Positions 18,101-56,700 of a stretch of DNA of 64,000 nt are shown here, in pieces. A program made the position numbers and the translations under genes. The notes beneath the pieces were generated by a model. It saw only the letters and a list, made by a program, of their open reading frames with translations. It did not search any database and had not been told where the DNA came from. Each line of letters starts with the position of its first letter. Position 1 is the stretch's first letter. Source of the stretch: Branchiostoma floridae (Eukaryota > Chordata > Leptocardii > Amphioxiformes > Branchiostomatidae); assembly GCF_000003815.2 (NCBI RefSeq), contig NC_049991.1:14955447-15019446 (forward strand), written 5' to 3'.

Positions 18101-20078
18101 TTAAACATTCCTGTCATTGAGGTGTTACAGAACTAGGAGTGGGTACCAGTGCAGAAAATTCAGGTAGAGGTACGGTCCAGGTCCAGAGGATCAGACTTCC
18201 ATTGATTAAGATGCAGCGCAAGCAGTTTTGATAGTAAGACTGGCACTTAGTTGCTGTTGCCCCAGAATTTCTGATTTAAAAGGCTACACATTAACCAGTA
18301 TAATTCTCGTTATTGAGATGTTAAGGTTCATATTCTTAACAGGTGTTAATCCAAGGTTTGAGAAAGGGTGAGGTGTCTATCACAGGCCTTGGCTGGCAAA
18401 CCATGATTAATGGTTGGCACGTTGCAAAGGAAAATTTTGGTTTCATTGTAAATTTGTTAACTTTCATTGTTGAATCTGACATTTTAAACTCAAAAAATAT
18501 ATTTTCATGTCATCAAATCAACATTCTGTCTATCACAAGACTGAAGCAAATTTCCATCCTGGGTTGGAGGGAATGTCCTAGAGAAAACCCTGGCCCTGTA
18601 CATGTATCTTTGTGTCCTTGACAGTCAGGATGTTCAAGTACATCAATATAATTTGCAGCCTCAAAGGTCCTTGTTAACATCTCCAGACACATCCTTAATT
18701 CAACTCTTCCTCCGCATGATTTACGACACAGTTAACACAGGGCTGTACCCTAGTCATACTTCATAGCTCTGCCTGTCTCTTACTCTGCAATGATGAATGA
18801 ACTTGAACACACAATTGGCCAGAAGCCATCTCATGAGCAATGGGAGTAGAATACAAATTCACCTGTGGCCCATTTAGTTGAACGTGAAGGATATACTTGT
18901 TCATGGAGAATGGCTGGTTCCCCCTTGATCTTTAAAGGAAATCACTGGAGGAGTTTTATCTGTTAGATTGTTTAACTGTTAGTGCCATAAGATCATGTAG
19001 CTTGTATTGAAGACTTTGTTGTGTAAGAATTATGTTAAATTTATTAACAATACACATGTTGCCATGAATTACTATGATGTGATACACATGGCATTAATAA
19101 TAGGTACTTTTCTTGTACTTTTCTACTTGCTTCAGAGACTGACATAAGAAAATTTTGAACAAATCAGTGACCTAAAAAAAAAGAACTGCAATGTTTACTA
19201 TCCTCCTTTTATTACAAGGATGCTAATCTCCAAGCATATCCTAAGGTGCCATAAGATAGTATCAATGCTGGCCAAGGAGTATAGCCGGCCAAAGGGAGTC
19301 AAATGGCCACCTACGGTGGGTTTGATACTATATTACGCCACCGTGGATCTGCTTGGAGATTACAAGGATGCATCATAACAAATCATTGACTTGCCCTCAG
19401 ATAGGACGTTAAATGGAGGTCCCACACCTCAAGTACATTAAAGAAGACACCACACAAGACTAGGGGTCCTTCCCAGAGTGAGTGGATCAAACCTCACAGC
19501 CTGGTTTCTGGGTTGACATCTTGAAATGGTGATGTCACCTTTTACTTTTAGGATTTATGTCAATCCTTCAACAAATAAGATACAACTTCAACAAGTAAAA
19601 TTAACTACTGTAAATACAGAAACTTTTGTGGTGGTTTGATGTTTGCGGTTTTCACGGTGACAGCTTCACCACGAGCTTAAAACCACCGCAAACATTTTTC
19701 CATGGCGGTAAGAGACTACAGTGCATGGTGCTACCGCGAACTTAAAACCACCGTGAAAAGTCCTTTTTCCTGCTACTGCAAAATTAAATCCCCGCGAACT
19801 TGTATTTATAGTATTTATATGTAAATAAAAAATGCTGGTTTTAATTTTACCTCCTTTTGGTCCTACAATCCTCCCATCTCCCTTTCTCTCCAGACCAGAA
19901 CCACCGGCACCGTGAGGAGAGGCGCGACCTTGAGACGGAGGTGACATCCCTGAGGGAGCAGGTCCGGATGAAGGATGCTGAGATCAGCAGGATCAGGGAT
20001 GAGGAGGCGCAGAGAGCCAGGATGCTGCAGTCGGCCATCAATAACTATGTGGGCGGAGCTACCGGGGGAAGGAGCTGA
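6154..20078 (+). CDS. LRRC45: Leucine-rich repeat-containing protein 45 (centrosome linker)
   Basis: Eighteen coding exons join in frame to 672 residues (human 670): 6154-6293, 6613-6710, 6860-6921, 7323-7393, 8354-8532, 8954-9082, 9490-9602, 11362-11498, 11858-11993, 12437-12514, 14773-14884, 15281-15351, 15591-15683, 16140-16232, 16599-16664, 17151-17258, 17886-18033, 19894-20078. The N-terminus [20 protein letters not shown] matches the human start. Residues about 40-226 are leucine-rich repeats ([31 protein letters not shown]). Residues about 228-660 are heptad-rich coiled coil containing the family signatures [12 protein letters not shown] and [13 protein letters not shown]. In vertebrates LRRC45 sits at the proximal centriole ends and supports centrosome cohesion and early ciliogenesis; the role here is inferred. 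Introns carry many short transposons (8.2, 12.7, 13.3-14.5, 17.3, 19.2, 19.6 kb) but no exon is broken. Confidence 0.95.
8226..8269. repeat. 17-bp perfect hairpin in LRRC45 intron 4
   Basis: TTCATGTTCTGAAAGTG at 8226-8242 is the exact reverse complement of 8253-8269, with a 10-nt loop. Weaker pairing continues outward to about 8213-8281. It ends about 85 bp before LRRC45 exon 5. Confidence 0.8.
10411..10455. repeat. Stem-loop in LRRC45 intron 7
   Basis: CAGGTTTCTAACCAAAA pairs with TTTTGGTTAAAAACCTG across a short loop. It is probably a relic of a palindromic MITE. Confidence 0.6.
11219..11276. repeat. Inverted repeat upstream of LRRC45 exon 8
   Basis: GGGGCTTCTTGAACTTGCTG and the complementary arm CAGCAAGTGCAAGGAGCCCC flank an A-rich loop. 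The structure lies about 85 bp before exon 8. Confidence 0.6.
12673..13088. mobile_element. hAT-like MITE with 8-bp target duplication
   Basis: The termini TAGTGGTGCGTACCG and CGGTACGCACCACTA are inverted repeats. The 8-bp sequence GTGGGAGG flanks both sides exactly (12665-12672 and 13089-13096), as expected for hAT insertions. The subterminal regions repeat CCGGTTCAGGTCCGGACT in both orientations. The element is 416 bp, has no ORF, and lies in LRRC45 intron 10. Confidence 0.88.
13266..14503. mobile_element. Mutator-like non-autonomous element with 9-bp target duplication
   Basis: The left end TAGACTCCCTTGCAGTCTTC and its reverse complement at 14484-14503 belong to a terminal inverted repeat of at least 27 bp. 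The 9-bp sequence GGCATGAAG flanks both sides exactly (13257-13265 and 14504-14512). The element is 1238 bp. Short AACTCCCTTT repeats follow the left terminus, a tRNA-like segment sits at about 13768-13850, and no transposase is visible. It lies in LRRC45 intron 10, 170 bp after a hAT-like MITE. Confidence 0.88.
13768..13850 (+). repeat. tRNA-derived relic inside a Mutator-like element
   Basis: TGGCGTAGTTG resembles an A-box and GAGTTCGAACC a B-box, at tRNA spacing and followed by long T-runs. Stems are not conserved, so it is not a tRNA gene. Its layout resembles the relic at 205-285. Confidence 0.5.
14925..15055. mobile_element. Degraded TACTGTAAATGCA-family MITE
   Basis: It keeps family core words (ATTTCGCATTAACGGGAAAATGG, split by mismatches, and GTTTGCGGTGGTTTTGAGTT) and a remnant of the right end near 15043. 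It lies in LRRC45 intron 11. Confidence 0.5.
16375..16475 (+). repeat. tRNA-SINE tail fragment
   Basis: The stretch containing TTACACGTTACTTTCCTCACT and GTACCTGACTTCGGTTGGGG aligns by eye with the tail of the SINE at 56195-56392. The tRNA-like head is missing. It lies in LRRC45 intron 14. Confidence 0.55.
17282..17509. mobile_element. MITE of the TACTGTAAATGCA family
   Basis: It starts TACTGTAAATGCATTTAA and contains the family core (GCGGTGGTTTTAAGTT, CACCGCAAAAACCGCGAAC). The right end is degraded. It lies in LRRC45 intron 16. Confidence 0.7.
18035..18325. repeat. Diverged tandem duplication in LRRC45 intron 17
   Basis: Segments starting GGTCAGACTTCTATTGATG (near 18033) and GGATCAGACTTCCATTGATT (near 18187) share order and wording through ATTTCTGATTTAAA and CATTGAGGTGTTA / TATTGAGATGTTA. 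About 50 bp of unrelated TACC/GGTCC-rich sequence lies between them. Confidence 0.5.
19224..19362. mobile_element. Mutator-like MITE (TAATCTCCAAG family), copy 1
   Basis: The ends TAATCTCCAAGCATATCC and GGATCTGCTTGGAGATTA are inverted repeats, and the interior is also palindromic (ATAAGATAGTATCAA ... TTTGATACTATATTA). CAAGGATGC flanks both sides exactly (19215-19223 and 19363-19371), a 9-bp target duplication. The element is 139 bp and lies in LRRC45 intron 17. Confidence 0.9.
19606..19812. mobile_element. MITE of the TACTGTAAATGCA family
   Basis: It begins TACTGTAAATACAG and ends TGTATTTATAGTA. The interior carries the family hairpin CGGTTTTCACGGTGA ... CTTCACC and AACTTAAAACCACCG twice. 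It lies in LRRC45 intron 17 close to the last exon. Confidence 0.75.
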
Positions 20079-27677: not shown

Positions 27678-30600
27678 ATGGACCCAACGAACGGACAGTA
27701 CCAGGAGCCCGATTCTTGGGAGCAAGTAGCGGACTCAGGACCGGCAAACACCGAGGCACCGCTACAAATTCAGAAGCCTTTTTCCAGCTTGAACATCAAT
27801 GCCCCGGATTTCGTACCATCTTGGTTGACAAAGACCTCTCCGTCCCAGGAACAGCAGCCAGGTTCGCACGATTCTGATAAAATACTCGATCTGAAGACAT
27901 GTATTTTGTTCCCTGCAATACTAGGTCGGGAGATGTGCCGATTTCTACCTGATCTTGCTGTCTGTACACTCGTACGAACGTCTGTCGATTGTCCGAAAAA
28001 ATGTCCGCCATGTTTTTGGCGCACGCAGGCATGGGGGAAAATATGACATGGCATGGCACTTTTCACACGATCAGCTGACTGGTCTGCCTACGCCTACATC
28101 ACCGCAGGTCTTTCCTAAAAACTCTGTACCACTTCTTCTATTCTCTTTGGTTGGTAAATTATACATGTCACTGGTTTAGATACTAGGGCAGATGTCTGTC
28201 CATTCAAAATATGTGGTGCGAAGTGGGGGGGGGGGGGCATAATGGTGACTCACTGTTATGCTCAACCATGTATGGTAAACAAGACATTTTCTGTAACAAC
28301 CGTTGTACCAAATCTCCTCATGGAAAAACACTATGGAATTTTCATATGTATGGTTGATTGGCAGTCAGTTGTGAAGTGTTGTTGGTGTTCTCGGCTGTTA
28401 TTAACAACTTAGTGGGAAACAATTTGTGGCCTACTGCTCCCATCTTGCTTTTCAGTCAACTTTCAAGGAGATGTAAACAAAAGCTTGAAAAGGGGAACTG
28501 GGTTTTCATTCATTGTTGGTCAGGAACGCTAACATTTTAGTTTCCGTGATCTAACTGGAGCATGTGCACCCATCTCAATAGAAGACTGGCAAGCACATAG
28601 CTTGGCATTTGTAATAATTTGTCAGGTGCTGATATTTACACATATCATACATGTAACGTTATAACGTTAAACTTAAACTGTTGTTTCTCTTGTAGACTAT
28701 GCCAAAATATTTCATGCTGACCATGAATTCACATGCGAAACTTCACAGTCAAAACTCCAGGCCCATTGCTTAGTCATGTTGAGTACGTACCATATGTTTC
28801 ATGGAACGATATAGAGCCTATTGAACTGCCACTGCCCACCATGCATCAAGTAATAACCCCTCATGGTTGTACAGTATGTTGGCCTTAGATAACCTTTTCC
28901 TGTTTTAACATCAGCCATTATTATAATATGGCATTGACCTGGTTATTGGACTTGTTATTTGGCCAACAGTCTGTCTGTAAGGTGACCTTGGATTTGATAT
29001 TTTGTAAACTGGTAGAAAGGTAGTCATTTGGATACTCACTATGATCTTTTGGTATGTAAAGACATCCACAACTTACAAGCTCTTTAAGATTGTCTGTATG
29101 TAGTTATTCTCCACATTCTCTATCCCCTCTTTCCTATAGATGCCCAGCAATATTACGGTATGGAAGAAATGTCAGGTTATTGGACTCGCTTCTTGGGCAA
29201 CAGCCTGTAAAGTGACCTTGAATGTTATATTCTTTAAACCTATACAAAGGTCGTAATTTATCGAAAGTGTAATTTGGATAGTTCAGAATTTTGGCAGCTA
29301 AAGATGGCTACAACCTACAATTTCTCTTCCTGTAAGTGTAAACTGTAATTATTCTCCACTTTCCTTGTCCCTTTTCTTACCTCGACTCGTCCTGCAATAA
29401 AAGAGTACTAGTATGTAAGAAAAGTGCAGGCTGAGAAAACCAAGTCTAAGTAAATGGTGCCTATTTCTCTGTACAAAACAATAATAACTCTTCCTGGACA
29501 CTACTCAGTATACTTATATTTTGGAGTTGATAACAAGATTACAGACTTAGCCATAACTTGATAAGTAAGGTTACATGGTAGAAGAACTAAAGCTGTTTGC
29601 AGCAATTTTCTGTCTAGGCTGAGTCTGAAAAGACTTGCCTGACTTGCATTCTTACTTTCAGAAGCTTGCATGCTTGTAAACTCAATATGTCCCATCATGA
29701 TCATGGCCTTGAACAGTTGTCAATCAGTATTCTGAACTGACTGGTAGTTTGTAGACGGGAGAAGTTGTTATTATATGTCTATACTGGATGATAGATTTGT
29801 CAGAAATGGGGAGAGTGGCCCAGATGGCCAGAGACATCGCACACTTCCCCTTAAAGTTGAATAAGTAATCTCCAAGCAGATCCTACGGTAGCATAAGATA
29901 ATATCAAAAGCTGCCAGAGGAGTGAAGCCGGCCTAAGGAGTATGTTTGGCTACCAGTGGCTGATGACACCCTTTGGCCAGCTATACTCCTTAAAGCCAGC
30001 TTTGATACTATTTTATGCCACTAGTTAAATGTGCCTGTAGATTATGTATAAGGTGTTTCACAGGAAGTGTGTTGCGTAATTTGTAAACAAACATAGATGG
30101 AGCAGATAGCGATGCTGTGTATGTGTTATGTAGGGATTGTCCCATTTTGAAATTGCTATCTTTGCCTTATCTGGTGCCTAATTCACTACAGTACAGGATG
30201 GTATACATATAGGTGTGTATGTTAAAGTTGTCTGGTGTTAAGCCAACTTTTCCAGTTGTATTTTTAGCCAGCTGTAGCGTAGACATATCATCTCAGTGAC
30301 AGTAGTAAGGGCACAGGGGTAGGGCCAAGGATATACTGTTTATGGTAATTCCTGATTTTTTCAATGTACTTTTATGTTCAAAGTTTTCAAGGTGACAACT
30401 GTAACATGAACATTATTGATAACAAATAAATTGCCGACTTTGTTTTTTTACCTGCACCTGCCGCCACTGTGAACATTTAGTTCTGAGAACAAGTTAAATT
30501 TTCTTAGACTGTGAAAGTTTGGTACCGAGAAGACAAAGTGAATGAATTACAGTAGCTAGCCTTGGGTGACTGTTCTTTAGTCTGTGTAATGCAGACTCCA

Positions 30601-51588: not shown

Positions 51589-52140
51589 CGTGCTGGAGGA
51601 AAGTATGGAAATTGTTCTGTTATTTGTAGAGAGTAGAGTAGAGTAGAGTGAAGACTCGTTCCATTATACGTGATAACAAAACAGAAGTTGCAGTAACTCA
51701 GAAAGCCGTAATAGGGCCAAAATCTTAATATTTTCTTTATCTTGCAATCTTGCCAACACGTATTTCCTTTATAATAGGTGAGGACTTTGATCACAGACAT
51801 TTTAGATTTCTGCCTTTTCTACCAAGTTGCTAAAACTTACCCGAAACGTTATAGCAGGAAGAAAAAAGTATGTTCTAGTTACAGAATGATTCTCGGCATA
51901 TCATATGTCTACATTACCTGTTGTTACTTCTTAAGGCGAGAGTTAAACCAGTGAACGGAAAAGTTGTCACAGCTGACACCAGCAGACGCCACAGCACTGC
52001 ACTGACCTCCAGGTCAACTTTCAACTTACTGACCTCCTTTAGACTGTTCTATTCAACACACAGGGTGAAGTTTTCAAAAACTCGTTTTGAAATATCAAAT
52101 ATAGTGTGAAAAGGATGCTACAGCTATGTTTATAGCAAGT
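51589..52140. other. ISOC2 upstream region
   Basis: It contains the presumed ISOC2 promoter and 5' UTR. A short AGAGT repeat lies at 51630-51650. No coding sequence is recognised. Confidence 0.4.
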
Positions 52141-52164
52141 CTACGAAAACCTCGCCTTCCGCAC

Positions 52165-52672
52165 TGGTGTTCCAGTGCTGAATCAATTGTCTGAACGGCC
52201 TCAGCACTGGTTTTCCAGTGCTGAAATTCTTTCAGCACTCGTTTTCCAGTGCTGATCGGCCTTGTTCGAGTGCTGAAACTCCCTCAGCACTGGTTTTCCA
52301 GTCCTGAATTTCTTTCAGCACTCGTTTTCCAGTGCTGAACTTCTGTCAGCACTCGTTTTCCAGTGCTGAACTGCCGCCAGCACTCGGTTACCAGTGCTGA
52401 AATCCGGGGATTTCGGGGCCGGGTCAGGTCAAAGGTCATTCAGCACTGGTTACCCAGTGCTGAAATCTCCGTCAGCACTGGAACCGAGTGCTGATATACA
52501 AAAACCTCACCTTCAGCACTGGATTTACCAGTGCTCGAGGACACTTCAGCACTGGAAAACCAGTGCTATGAAATCTTCAGCACTGCAAACCAGTGCTGAC
52601 GTCTTTTAAGGACTGGAACGATGTGCGAACCAGTGCTGACGTCCTTCCAGCACTGGAATCTCCCAGTGCTGA
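52165..52672. repeat. Left palindrome array (CAGCACTSG...CCAGTGCTG)
   Basis: About 12 palindromic units are separated by irregular 3-25-nt linkers (GAAATTCTTT, GAACTTCTGT and others). Individual units show one or two substitutions, often in both arms. The arm variation CTGG/CTCG is shared with the right array. Confidence 0.9.
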
Positions 52673-52689
52673 GAGGGGTACAAGACGTA

Positions 52690-52925
52690 AATTTGAAGGA
52701 AAGATATTAAGTTATTTCGTGCAAAGAAAATTGTAGTTGTGCTATCCATTCGTTATGTAATTGAATATATGTATACTGTATAAGTACTGATAGCGGTACT
52801 AGTAAAAGGACGCAAATTTGATTAAAGTTACTTCGTGCAAAGAAAACTTCGTGTAAAGTTGTGCATTTTATTCGTTGTCCATGTATAATTGAAAGGTAGA
52901 TATATGTATATGTGTAAGAGGTGTT
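52690..52925. repeat. ~110-bp duplication in the foldback core
   Basis: ACGTAAATTTGAAGGAAAGA... and ACGCAAATTTGATTAAAGTT... start two units sharing TTCGTGCAAAGAAAA, a TTCGTT word, ATAATTGAA or GTAATTGAA, and ATATATGTATA. The units have diverged by point changes and small indels. Confidence 0.65.
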
Positions 52926-52998
52926 TAAGGGATAGCTATTATTATAACAATAAGCAACTTTATTGTGTGATAGATATAGCCCTTTTGGGAAAGATTTG

Positions 52999-53019
52999 GG
53001 TGGCCCTGAAAAGGGCCGG
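52999..53019 (-). ncRNA. Histone mRNA 3'-end stem-loop motif (captured or relic)
   Basis: On the minus strand GGCCCTTTTCAGGGCC followed by ACCCA matches the replication-dependent histone 3' stem-loop consensus exactly: a 6-bp stem GGCCCT/AGGGCC, loop TTTC, flank ACCCA. No histone coding sequence lies upstream on that strand within this element, so this appears to be a captured 3'-UTR piece or a relic, not part of a complete histone gene. Confidence 0.6.
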
Positions 53020-53200
53020 GGTGCTGTGAGGCAGACTTCAGCCTGCCTCCTCGTTGTTGTTGTTGTTGTCGTTGAAGAGGCGCCCCTGAACTTCCAAAAA
53101 GATGAGGTCTGCCATAGGTGACGTTTATAATCCAGCAATGTCTTAAGTTTTAGTAGTAGAGCAAAGGACGTATCGTAATTCCAAATTACTGTATATCTCA

Positions 53201-53339
53201 TAATCTCGGACCAGATCCACGGTGCGTAATGTATAGTATCAAACTACCCTCCGGTGCCCGTTTGACTCTCTTGGCCGGCTACACTCCTTGGCCAGCTTTG
53301 ATACTATCTTATGGCACCGTAGGATCTGCTTGGAGATTA
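53201..53339. mobile_element. Mutator-like MITE (TAATCTCCAAG family), copy 3, nested in the foldback element
   Basis: It starts TAATCTCGGACCAGATCCAC and ends GTAGGATCTGCTTGGAGATTA (one mismatch region in the left TIR). TATATCTCA flanks it exactly on both sides (53192-53200 and 53340-53348), a 9-bp target duplication. It is 139 bp, the same length as copy 1 at 19224-19362. Its insertion postdates the foldback element. Confidence 0.92.
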
Positions 53340-53355
53340 TATATCTCAGAATCTC

Positions 53356-53586
53356 TCAGCACTCGTTTTCCAGTGCTGAATATTCGTCAGCACTCGTTTT
53401 CCAGTGCTGAATGTTCGTCAGCACTGGAAATCCAGTGCTGAATGTTCTTCAGCACTCGGTTTCCAGTGCTGAAGCTGGTGTTTCGAGTGCTGAGAGCGCG
53501 TCAGCACTGGAATTCCAGTGCTGACGAACATTCAGCACTGGAAATCCAGTGCTGACGCCATCTTCAGCTCTGGGTTCCAGTGCTGA
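53356..53586. repeat. Right palindrome array (CAGCACTSG...CCAGTGCTG)
   Basis: About eight units of the same palindrome are joined by linkers such as AATATTCGT, AATGTTCGT and ACGAACATT. Linkers occur in both orientations, so whole unit-linker blocks have been inverted as well as duplicated. Confidence 0.9.
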
Positions 53587-53737
53587 AAAAGGAGGGAGAG
53601 GTTTTCGTAGTTTTGCATGTTTATATTATATTTACTACTAACAAAATAATATATTGCTGTGTTTTTGTTGTTGCTTTTTTGATACAATAAAAGTGTTTTA
53701 AGGAGCTACTGAACACCCCGACAAAGTGGTACGGTCC

Positions 53738-53743
53738 CACGTG
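53738..53743. promoter_or_regulatory. E-box in the RSL1D1 promoter
   Basis: CACGTG (in CCCACGTGGCG) lies 9 bp before the RSL1D1 start codon. Canonical E-boxes near starts of ribosome-biogenesis genes are typical Myc/Max sites; use here is inferred. Confidence 0.5.
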
Positions 53744-53752
53744 GCGTGCAAG

Positions 53753-56700
53753 ATGGCGACGTTAGACAGTGATCAGGTAGGCAGTGTGGACTTTTGTAGC
53801 GTTTCTTGGGCAAAATTACAATTGAACACTTTAAAACATGTGCTATCGCTGTAGCTACTATTAGATCATCTTTCATGCTATTTTTTGTCACCGAGCCCTT
53901 TGATATGGTGGTTTTACAAGAGCAATAGTGTTGCGTTTAAATAGCAAACAGTTGCAAACACGTGCATGCACCCATCACTATGATTTGCAAAGTTTCTAAA
54001 GCTTCTCTGTCGCTATAGCTTTCCGTTCACCGATCTGACAGATATGTTTTTTCTCCCAAAAGGTTACGAAGGCTGCCAAGGCCCTTGTGAACTTCCACCA
54101 GGAGAGGGGAACAAAGAAGAAGGGAAAGAAAGATTTACTTGAGGATGAGGCGGCCATGCCTGTGTTCATGCAGTTCTCGGTCAAGAGGATCCCGAAGGAG
54201 AAGAACCAGAAATATCTGATGTAAGCAAAGAGCTTTTATTCTGATGGAAGCTCCTTGATGTTAAATAGTTAGATAAGTAAGATGGTTGAGATAATGTTCT
54301 TCTTCTGTACTGCCTGGCCACTTTATATATTTCAAATTGTATCAAATTATTGTATTCAATGTTTCAGCATCTCAGGTTATTCAATGTATTGATGTTATGT
54401 CTACGTGGTGTCTTAATATGTGGTCATAACACTAGGCAATTGCTGCTAGTGAACCACGTGCATTGTGCTGTTTGCAATCAATTAATTATTTAATAAAATT
54501 AAACCGAACCAAATCAAATCTACGTATTTCCCTATCCAAATACATTATACTAAATTGAACTGAACGAAATCGTCCAACATCCTTTTTTACCGGTAGATTG
54601 TGACTTGCACAAATCACAATCCTTGTATTTGCAGAAAACTTCCCCACAGCATAGAGAAGCCCACAGAGGTGTGCCTGTTCACACGTGACAGGAAGAACCT
54701 GGAACCTGAGCTTCCCACTACGGAGATGTACTACATGGACTTACTCAAGAAACATGGAGTCACGTGTGTCACTGAGGTCAGGCCCTAATGCTATTCTCTA
54801 CCGTATGATGTCAGACAATTTAGCCTTTTCCCAAGCTGGCCCAAGGCTGATCAAACCAACTCACCTTGTTAGCCGAAACCTACCCTGGGAAGCCAGACAG
54901 GACTGGTAGCTAGCAAGATTTGTTCGCGAGTTTTGTTCGGGGAGCCAAGGCAGCCTGCCCGCCGACCTCACATTGGCGCTCCGGGGAGTTTCAGCCCGGA
55001 GGAGTATTCGCTACCCGGGGGTAAAGGACAGGTGGACCTAATTGGGCTTAAACTCCCCGGGGCGCTAATAGGAGCTCGGCGGGCATGACTGTCTTGGGCT
55101 ACCGATAAACTGTCCAAGCTGTCCGACCCCGGATGGCTCCCAGGGTAGCCAAAACCCTGACCTTAACCCTAACAGAAGCCAAGTAGACCAGGCTGTTGGA
55201 TGGCGTTCACAAGGGTACTTGTCAGAGTTGACCAGAGTGTTGGGCAAAGTTGGTGTGTTTGATATTTTTTGTTAAGAAAAAGAAGATATTCTCAATGTGG
55301 AAACATCCCATTTTTACTCCTAATATAAAAGTCATAACTTGTAGTTCTGAATCTTGATAAATTCTTTTTAAAAAAGTAGCACTACAACTAACGTTAGTTA
55401 ACTACCGATTGTGTAACACAAAGAATCCTAACCATTCTTTATTGCTCCACTCTACAGGTTATCTCCTACAAGAAGCTGTCTAAAGAGTATAAGCAGTTTG
55501 AATCCAAGCTGCGTCTTCTCAAGTCCTTTGACCTGTTCCTGTCAGACAGAGGAGTCACAAGGATGCTCCCATCCCATCTGGGAAAGCACTTCTACAAGGC
55601 CAAGAAGTAAGTTCTGTTCATACGTTTTGGTTTCCGACATTTTTTTTGCTTCTTTTTATTCTATTGTCAAACAAATCCCAACAATCTATAACGGATGAAA
55701 ATTGAGATTTGTGTTAGAATTGATCTTTTTTCTGATATAGTGGGTATTTTGTTACTTATTTGTAGAAAAAGACTAGAAATTATGTATCAATGTACTAGTA
55801 AGTATATTATATTCAATGCAATGATTCAGTCAAATTTAGAAAAACTCATTTTCATATCAAGCCAAAGTACTAGTAACTTATCATAAGGAAGGCAACTGTT
55901 GGTGAGAAATAATGTTTGCACCATCCACAAGCTCAAACAAATTACACTAATTTTGTTCTTTATGTGAATAGAAGTGTTGGCAAAAACTGTTGTGTTGGAC
56001 AGTATTTCAGCAGACTAGCCATGTGTGTCCTGACCATGACCTTGCCTGTTGTGCCCAGGTTCCCTATCGATGTGAACCTGGAGAAGAAGGACCTGAAGCC
56101 AGAGTTCCAGCGTGTCCTGGGCAGCACCAGGTGTACAGTCACTGGGCACGGCTCCTGCAGGTCAGTATGGGGAAACAGACAAGCAATACCTAGAGTGGCA
56201 TTGGGCGTGGCACAACTGGTAAATTGTTTGGCTCAGAATCTAGAGGTTCTGAGTTCGATTCCCGCCGTGCCCCCGACGTTGTGCCCTTGGGAAAGACACT
56301 TTACACGACCTTCCTCACTTCCCCCAGGGGTAAAAATGAGTAGCTGACTTCGGTCAGGGAGGTAAAAGACTACCTTTACCTTCTGTATTTGGCACTGTTA
56401 ATATAAGTTACAAAACTTGAGTGCAGTGCCACATTGTCCTTGTCTGTCCAGAAGAAAATAGAAACAAAACTAGAGATAAAAAAGGATACAGTTCAACTAG
56501 TTCAAGGAGCTAAGGATATCTTATAATGTCCATATAGGAGGCTGCATCTCCCATGTATTAGAGTGGCTACATAATCTTTGCCTTACAGACTGTAGCTACA
56601 TGACCATAGTTGTCTCCAGTTGTAGTTGTACATAACTTCCACCACTATACAACATGTAAGTGAAAAGGTAAAGGCCCCATAGCCTTTTTGAGGCCATAGG

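Follow-up and report, generated by a model that had tools for sequence, protein, structure and literature searches.

The 64,000-nucleotide stretch of Branchiostoma floridae DNA analysed here (the window) contains a 1482-bp copy (52135-53616) of a dispersed DNA transposon with 19-bp inverted ends, GCAARWCTACGAAAACCTC. That the element is a transposon of this kind is practically certain. The explanation that best covers the whole, and that we consider fairly likely, is that the copy is non-autonomous and belongs to a foldback family, probably of Mutator type (MULE); its arms would form a phased array of binding sites, and its interior would contain the remains of a gene that ended in a histone-type stem-loop. 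The family is real and its anatomy is of a known kind, with unusual variant features.

Structure and dispersal of the element

The features of the window copy are collected in Table 1. Its two ends are inverted and identical at 17 of 19 positions, and a perfect 9-bp target duplication lies directly outside both. An earlier note on this DNA had placed the boundaries at 52141..53613, with an inverted CTACGAAAACCTC. The inverted sequence is present, but the element is 6 nt longer on the left and 3 nt longer on the right, and the outer bases and the target duplication had been missed. The count of about 12 and 8 units given there is close to the full and half-sites of the two arms.

Table 1 Features of the foldback element copy in the window
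Feature	Position	Strand	Remarks
Left target site duplication, ATGTTTATA	52126..52134	.	same 9-mer at the other end
Left terminal inverted repeat, GCAAGTCTACGAAAACCTC, with subfamily A box ACCTC	52135..52153	+	
Left arm, 13 palindromic units and 3 single half-sites	52155..52674	+	half-site spacing near multiples of 10.5 bp
Internal copy of terminal box, ATATACAAAAACCTC	52494..52508	+	co-varies with both ends between subfamilies
Histone 3' stem-loop (GGCCCTTTTCAGGGCCACC, 53017-52999) and downstream sequence	52976..53022	-	Rfam RF00032
Last codons of putative carried gene, MADLIFLEVQGRLFNDNNNNNEEAG and stop	53038..53115	-	stop 20 nt before stem-loop
Unrelated short hairpin repeat, nested	53201..53339	.	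also 19224-19362 and 29866-30049
Right arm, 7 palindromic units and 1 half-site	53357..53585	+	
Right terminal inverted repeat, GCAAAACTACGAAAACCTC	53598..53616	-	
Right target site duplication, ATGTTTATA	53617..53625	.	

A search of the host assembly with the unit pattern, CAGCACTSG-N4-CCAGTGCTG, a check proposed in the earlier note, gave 1048 + 1083 sites against 1 + 1 for the reversed control, far beyond chance. The left-end pattern, with at most two mismatches, occurs at 148 + 144 = 292 sites in the 513-Mb assembly (control, 0 + 0), and the first 100 of these in the list are spread over contigs C1 to C16. Three subfamilies are set apart by the box behind the end, which reads ACCTC in A, GCTTC in B and GTAACGG in C. 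Our sample of copies comprises 30 loci taken by their left ends and the window copy, 31 in all, and 21 of them have a recognizable right end within the retrieved stretch.

Target duplications, likewise proposed as a check, match at 9/9 positions in 14 of these 21 two-ended copies and at 8/9 in two, and the 14 perfect ones are 14 different 9-mers. The match is poor in the other five: L046, L055 and L065 have a direct repeat shifted by 2-4 nt, and L051 and L074 have none that is clear. Element ends with 9-bp duplications are also found at L018 and L101. The earlier note had only inferred mobility and had named copies that always share their flanks, as in a locus-specific satellite, as the case against it. 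Across the 31 copies neither a locus nor flanks are held in common; L054 and L057 are the only pair with a common left flank (591 bp, 99.7% identical). Dispersed copies, three subfamilies and the varied target duplications now bear mobility out.

The L054/L057 pair is probably one insertion duplicated along with its surroundings. The two left ends lie on different contigs (C1 and C2), either in a duplicated stretch or as an assembly duplicate. A second pair with a common flank, L105/L106, lies outside the 31-copy set. Several subfamily C copies (L050, L052, L053, L065 and L073) have an apparent internal tandem satellite of about 142 bp, judging from match offsets.

The terminal box and its internal copy

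The left and right boxes are identical in all 21 two-ended copies. A further, internal copy of the box conforms to a common pattern in 28 of the 31 copies, and 27 of these 28 carry exactly the box of their own subfamily at the expected place. The odd copy, L067, has the B-type box GCTTC a few bases further on, and L058, L062 and L074 do not fit the internal pattern. The earlier note had recognized the extra copy at about 52498, rightly, and had read it as a hint that the ends grow by duplication. It is instead an old feature of the family, common to the three subfamilies and tracking their ends, which speaks against such growth.

A natural reading of the box changing in concert at both ends and in the internal copy is that it may have co-evolved with a subfamily-specific transposase. 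In A and B the bases adjoining the box are not the same at the end (TCTACGAAA) as inside (ATATACAAA), which makes a long conversion tract a less simple explanation than others. Short conversion could still be the source of the concordance.

Palindromic units and helical phasing

The unit is a 22-bp palindrome and the tandem periodicity of the array is 31 bp. As a single DNA strand, the left arm folds far better than 100 shuffled sequences (z = -15.3), because its units are palindromes, and 151 of the 480 units in the 31 copies are perfect ones. This agrees with the foldability claimed in the earlier note, and would suit a reading in which it is the folding of the single strand, or of a cruciform, that maintains the palindromes. 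The note had gone further and reported compensating changes in both arms, which it took as selection on the fold. This part is contradicted by the larger set of units: a single position in 480 units is compensated, and the arm changes are otherwise one-sided. Arm position 8 changed 127 times on the left and 61 times on the right, never with compensation, and one double change was observed against 16.1 expected by independence, in counts that are not independent cells because many changes are inherited. Compensated pairs would have been caught, because the unit search tolerated up to five mismatches; a set of 161 units, drawn in part from the same copies, had a similar lack of compensation. The fold is clearly not what selection preserves. 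Since helical phasing, described below, is moreover a property of duplex DNA, we regard maintenance for folding as very improbable. Matches to microRNA families on the arrays were under the gathering scores and reflect hairpin shape, and they were rejected.

The alternative that the earlier note had allowed, a dimeric protein on each palindrome, is favoured by the one-sided changes and also by half-site conservation and helical phasing. Columns in the half-sites are identical among the three left-arm subfamily consensuses at 200 of 231, compared with 181 of 282 for the remaining columns (consensuses from 8, 8 and 11 copies; L057, L058, L062 and L074 were excluded beforehand as truncated or divergent). 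Minus-oriented half-sites hold one helical phase across about 450-490 bp, with intervals such as 21, 31, 43 and 63 bp falling within about 2 bp of multiples of 10.5. Taken per subfamily, the phasing gives R = 0.88-0.92 and p = 0.0001-0.0003 under a null model of our choice, in which each interval class was shifted randomly by up to 5 bp; the three results are not independent tests, because the subfamilies share ancestry. From these sequence properties we infer putative protein dimer sites in a row on one face of the duplex, and a phased protein-binding array seems a likely interpretation. Drosophila FB elements, with foldback ends of short tandem repeats, have pitches of 10, 20 and 31 bp, near whole helical turns.

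The arrays could also be neutral, satellite-like expansions that are homogenized by slippage or conversion and have no binding function. Such an origin would account readily for the 31-bp tandem periodicity and for array sizes that differ among copies, and foldback-type end arrays elsewhere are related to satellites (Rehavkus-1_TC and Tetris). Half-sites are, however, better conserved than the rest across subfamilies, the phase persists over irregular intervals such as 21, 43 and 63 bp, and the order of the irregular intervals is largely conserved among subfamilies. We consider neutral expansion rather improbable and prefer the protein-binding array, although the phasing, like the box concordance, could partly reflect shared ancestry or gene conversion.

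The sequence AGGTCAAAGGTCA (window 52423-52440), which we take to resemble a DR1 nuclear-receptor site, is present in the left-arm consensus of subfamily A and in that of subfamily B; the C consensus has its second half only.

A histone-type stem-loop in the interior

The interior of the window copy contains, on the minus strand, a match to the histone 3' stem-loop family RF00032 with 33.8 bits (E = 3.4e-7), 0.2 under the gathering score of 34. Genome-wide, the same family has at least 75 matches, at least 74 of them over the cut-off, from the scoring of 75 among 84422 first-look candidates, and two with 37.1 bits (C3:4422392 and C3:4785731) are subfamily C type copies beside foldback arms. 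Among the 31 copies taken by left ends, the stem-loop is recognizable in six (up to three mismatches, no further than about 1.5 kb from the left end), with all three subfamilies represented. An Rfam scan of 13 other loci (L006-L018) gave no RF00032 match at E 0.5 or better.

A genome search with a 251-nt query returned at least 47 matches, and several B and C copies match over the stem-loop block only. In 32 segments, most of which had been chosen for such a match, the 16-nt stem-loop pattern is exact in 26, has one mismatch in one and two mismatches in another, and is missing from four (L047, L052, L056 and L089). Exact versions are present in copies of all three subfamilies. A strand test covered 29 of the 47 matches, those over the stem-loop block, 10 of them without a listed left end; the stem-loop is on the strand opposite the nearest left end in 17 of the 19 testable matches, and one of the two exceptions sits between two left ends.

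The sequence that follows the stem-loop, ACCCAAAT...AAAAGGGCTATATCTATC, resembles that at other RF00032 sites of the genome. The closest resemblance among the six such sites examined, which are taken to be histone genes, is to L108-L110 (ACCCAAAT...AAAAAAGAGCTGTATCTT).

The putative carried gene

In the window copy, the stop codon before the stem-loop closes a 25-codon frame that is about 75-76% identical, over these 25 residues only, to the C-terminus of a 266-aa ORF at L076. Two loci on C17 have long open frames with a similar terminus, of 266 codons at L076 and 265 codons at L077, with a perfect stem-loop just after each, and the differences between the two are limited to 6 synonymous and 3 nonsynonymous codons. 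Searching the genome with the protein gave 13 dispersed matches, two full-length and 11 partial. Five of the 13, all partial, form a cluster at C6:26.1-28.1 Mb. A partial relative of the protein is present in the subfamily C copy L101, which has its two ends and the duplication ACCACAAAC; this relative is a 135-aa frame whose last residues, FLEIHRRLFDTNNNED, lie shortly before the stem-loop. Identity between the C-subfamily fragment and the C17 protein is about 50%.

The pN/pS of the 266-aa frame is 0.28 against L102 and 0.54 against L101, at dS values of 1.2-2.6 that are near saturation, but it is 0.86 between the foldback copies L101 and L055. This combination fits a gene that was once selected and may now be carried as a passenger.

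The full-length ORFs at C17 are without intact palindrome arms. A stretch of 56 nt downstream of the L077 gene, oriented as expected, is a relic of the inner left arm (87.5% identity). Upstream of the same gene lies an array of a minisatellite of about 73 bp (L079:58-1867) with an end-like GGCTACGAAAACTTCTT. This array is possibly an arm of another foldback family; no inverted partner was found in the 5.5 kb compared downstream, part of which reads N.

Searches of Pfam, PHROGs and PDB sequences with the 266-aa protein yielded no significant hit, and because of this it may be the product of a captured host gene. The stem-loop and ORF together could have been captured passively from a host gene with a histone-type 3' end, in the manner of a Pack-MULE, and would then have no role in the life of the element. 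We take this possibility seriously and place it somewhat short of an even chance. It is consistent with a protein that has no transposase signature, with the state of the arms around the full ORFs at C17, and with the lack of the stem-loop in most copies (six of 31 have it, and none of the 13 in the Rfam scan). Acquisition of host sequence was also proposed by the authors of the Tm1-HH study (PMC3169594). Capture is less easily reconciled with a stem-loop in all three subfamilies, with the dispersal of the 13 matches and with the left-arm relic at C17. The C-subfamily fragment is too distant from the C17 protein for a recent capture from it, while the subfamily A remnant in the window is closer, at about 75-76%, but over its 25 residues only. 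On balance we lean slightly towards a gene of the element rather than an old capture.

Superfamily affiliation

The genome contains 27 MULE-domain matches (L019-L045), several with long open frames. None of these loci has a palindrome array within 1.5 kb, and within that distance none could be linked to the family as a direct partner. Neither do they contain a stem-loop at two mismatches or fewer, or a relative of the 266-aa protein better than E 0.22. L035 has an end-like match (three mismatches), but this match falls beyond the part common to L035 and its sister copy L036 and was for that reason judged a chance occurrence. In open frames from three of the 27 loci, a Pfam scan gave no PHD match. 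One published paper states that no MULE transposases were detectable for Branchiostoma floridae (PMC6446971).

Two traits of MULEs are nonetheless present in the family. The 9-bp target duplications are within the 8-11 bp range, and the long inverted ends contain tandem subterminal repeats that vary between copies. We consider an affiliation with Mutator probable, although the ends yielded no transposase between them that would establish formal membership. Merlin elements can also leave duplications of about 9 bp. The family might belong to Merlin or to another superfamily with such duplications, and the lack of a transposase within the ends would leave room for this, as would a genome search for transposases that covered the MULE domain family only. 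We judge it unlikely, since 9-bp duplications combined with long, internally repeated ends are the pattern of Mutator/Phantom foldbacks (PMC3169594, PMC5225508), and MULE-domain loci do exist in this genome.

Comparison with known elements

The closest parallel to the amphioxus family is Tm1, with its variant Tm1-HH, in root-knot nematodes (PMC3169594). Tm1 and the amphioxus family share 9-bp target duplications, composite ends, a short motif in variable number and mostly non-autonomous copies, and Tm1-HH has a histone hairpin motif between its ends, as do the window copy and the two copies with 37.1 bits. The Tm1 unit is mostly 14 bp (CGATTCAGTATCGC), whereas the amphioxus unit is a longer palindrome on a 31-bp pitch, and by inspection the amphioxus unit and ends differ from the 14-bp Motif C and the terminal motifs A1/A2 of Tm1-HH. 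For Tm1-HH no obvious coding potential is reported, whereas an ORF precedes the amphioxus hairpin. Tm1 has a known Phantom-like transposase; none was found for the amphioxus family.

Muta1, a Phantom-type MULE of Aedes aegypti, likewise has duplications of 8-9 bp and long ends with tandem subterminal repeats, in its case nine copies of 12 bp, and is called a type 2 Foldback (PMC5225508). Its putative non-autonomous derivatives number more than 300; they differ in how many repeats they have, and their interiors are mixed. Muta1 differs from the amphioxus family in repeat unit and pitch and in having a known active transposase, and the text examined makes no mention of a histone-type 3' end. Rehavkus elements (PMC10218199, PMC6446971) share the 9-bp duplications and the repeat arrays near or in the inverted termini, but have a PHD-finger transposase and, in the beetle element, a 164-bp satellite unit. 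Galileo, a foldback of the P superfamily, provides a model for the proposed function of the array, with long repeated ends that contain binding sites for the THAP domain of its transposase, one of them footprinted and two more bound in gel shifts (PMC3688188). It differs in its P-element transposase and in its three reported sites per end, which are not described as a phased palindrome array in the text examined.

The earlier note had stated that no described family has this unit. For the unit itself this agrees with the open-licence literature, as it is undescribed in the titles and abstract openings of the matching papers, among the matches listed; the architecture, by contrast, has been described (PMC3169594, PMC5225508). 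We found no open-licence papers on amphioxus foldback transposable elements, and an amphioxus paper on opsins and transposable elements (PMC5802833) does not contain the terms MuDR, Mutator, Rehavkus, MULE, foldback or hAT. Searches for the histone stem-loop or SLBP together with transposons gave nothing pertinent by title and abstract opening, and for a histone hairpin in Mutator or foldback elements the Tm1 study was the sole pertinent title among the matches listed. As far as this literature goes, three features are new: the phasing of the palindromes, an internal box that co-varies with the ends, and a coding frame before the stem-loop.

Proposed mechanism and significance

We hypothesize that the transposase would recognize the subfamily-specific terminal box at both ends and in the internal copy. 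The palindromic CAGCACTGG half-sites on one helix face might serve as an array of binding sites for a second transposase domain or a host protein, which would load and pair the ends, and the ability to form hairpins would be a by-product of symmetric dimer sites. The parent element may have contained a single-exon gene whose reading direction was from right arm to left arm. Its mRNA would have ended at the histone-type stem-loop and a downstream element, with no poly(A) tail. With such an end the gene would be expressed in S phase only, the period in which an element of the cut-and-paste type can increase in number. Of this gene, the window copy would retain only the last 25 codons and the 3' end.

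We put forward an S-phase gene carried by the element tentatively. Equally speculative is the wider picture of a transposon lineage that might have its own gene on a histone mRNA 3' end (a stem-loop and a U7-type element) locked to S phase, helically phased ends of dimer sites, and a box co-evolving with the transposase. If true, this would suggest, together with the nematode Tm1-HH, a recurrent way for Mutator foldbacks to couple their activity to DNA replication. A histone-type 3' end in a second Mutator-like foldback lineage, far in sequence from the nematode one, would turn what was a one-off curiosity into a testable hypothesis of S-phase coupling.

In 2013, the role of tandem repeats in Foldback/Phantom ends as transposase binding sites was called untested in the Galileo paper (PMC3688188). 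With one palindromic unit, helical phasing on one face and three subfamilies with matched boxes, the amphioxus family offers a clean system for this question.

Setting of the window copy

The short hairpin repeat nested in the window copy (Table 1) is MITE-like and separate from the foldback family, with further copies elsewhere in the window; it has no match in the foldback copy L012. About 140 bp downstream of the end of the element (window 53617-53780) there is an ATG (ATGGCGACGTTAGACAGTGATCAG) that may start a gene, and because of this proximity the window copy may sit in a promoter.
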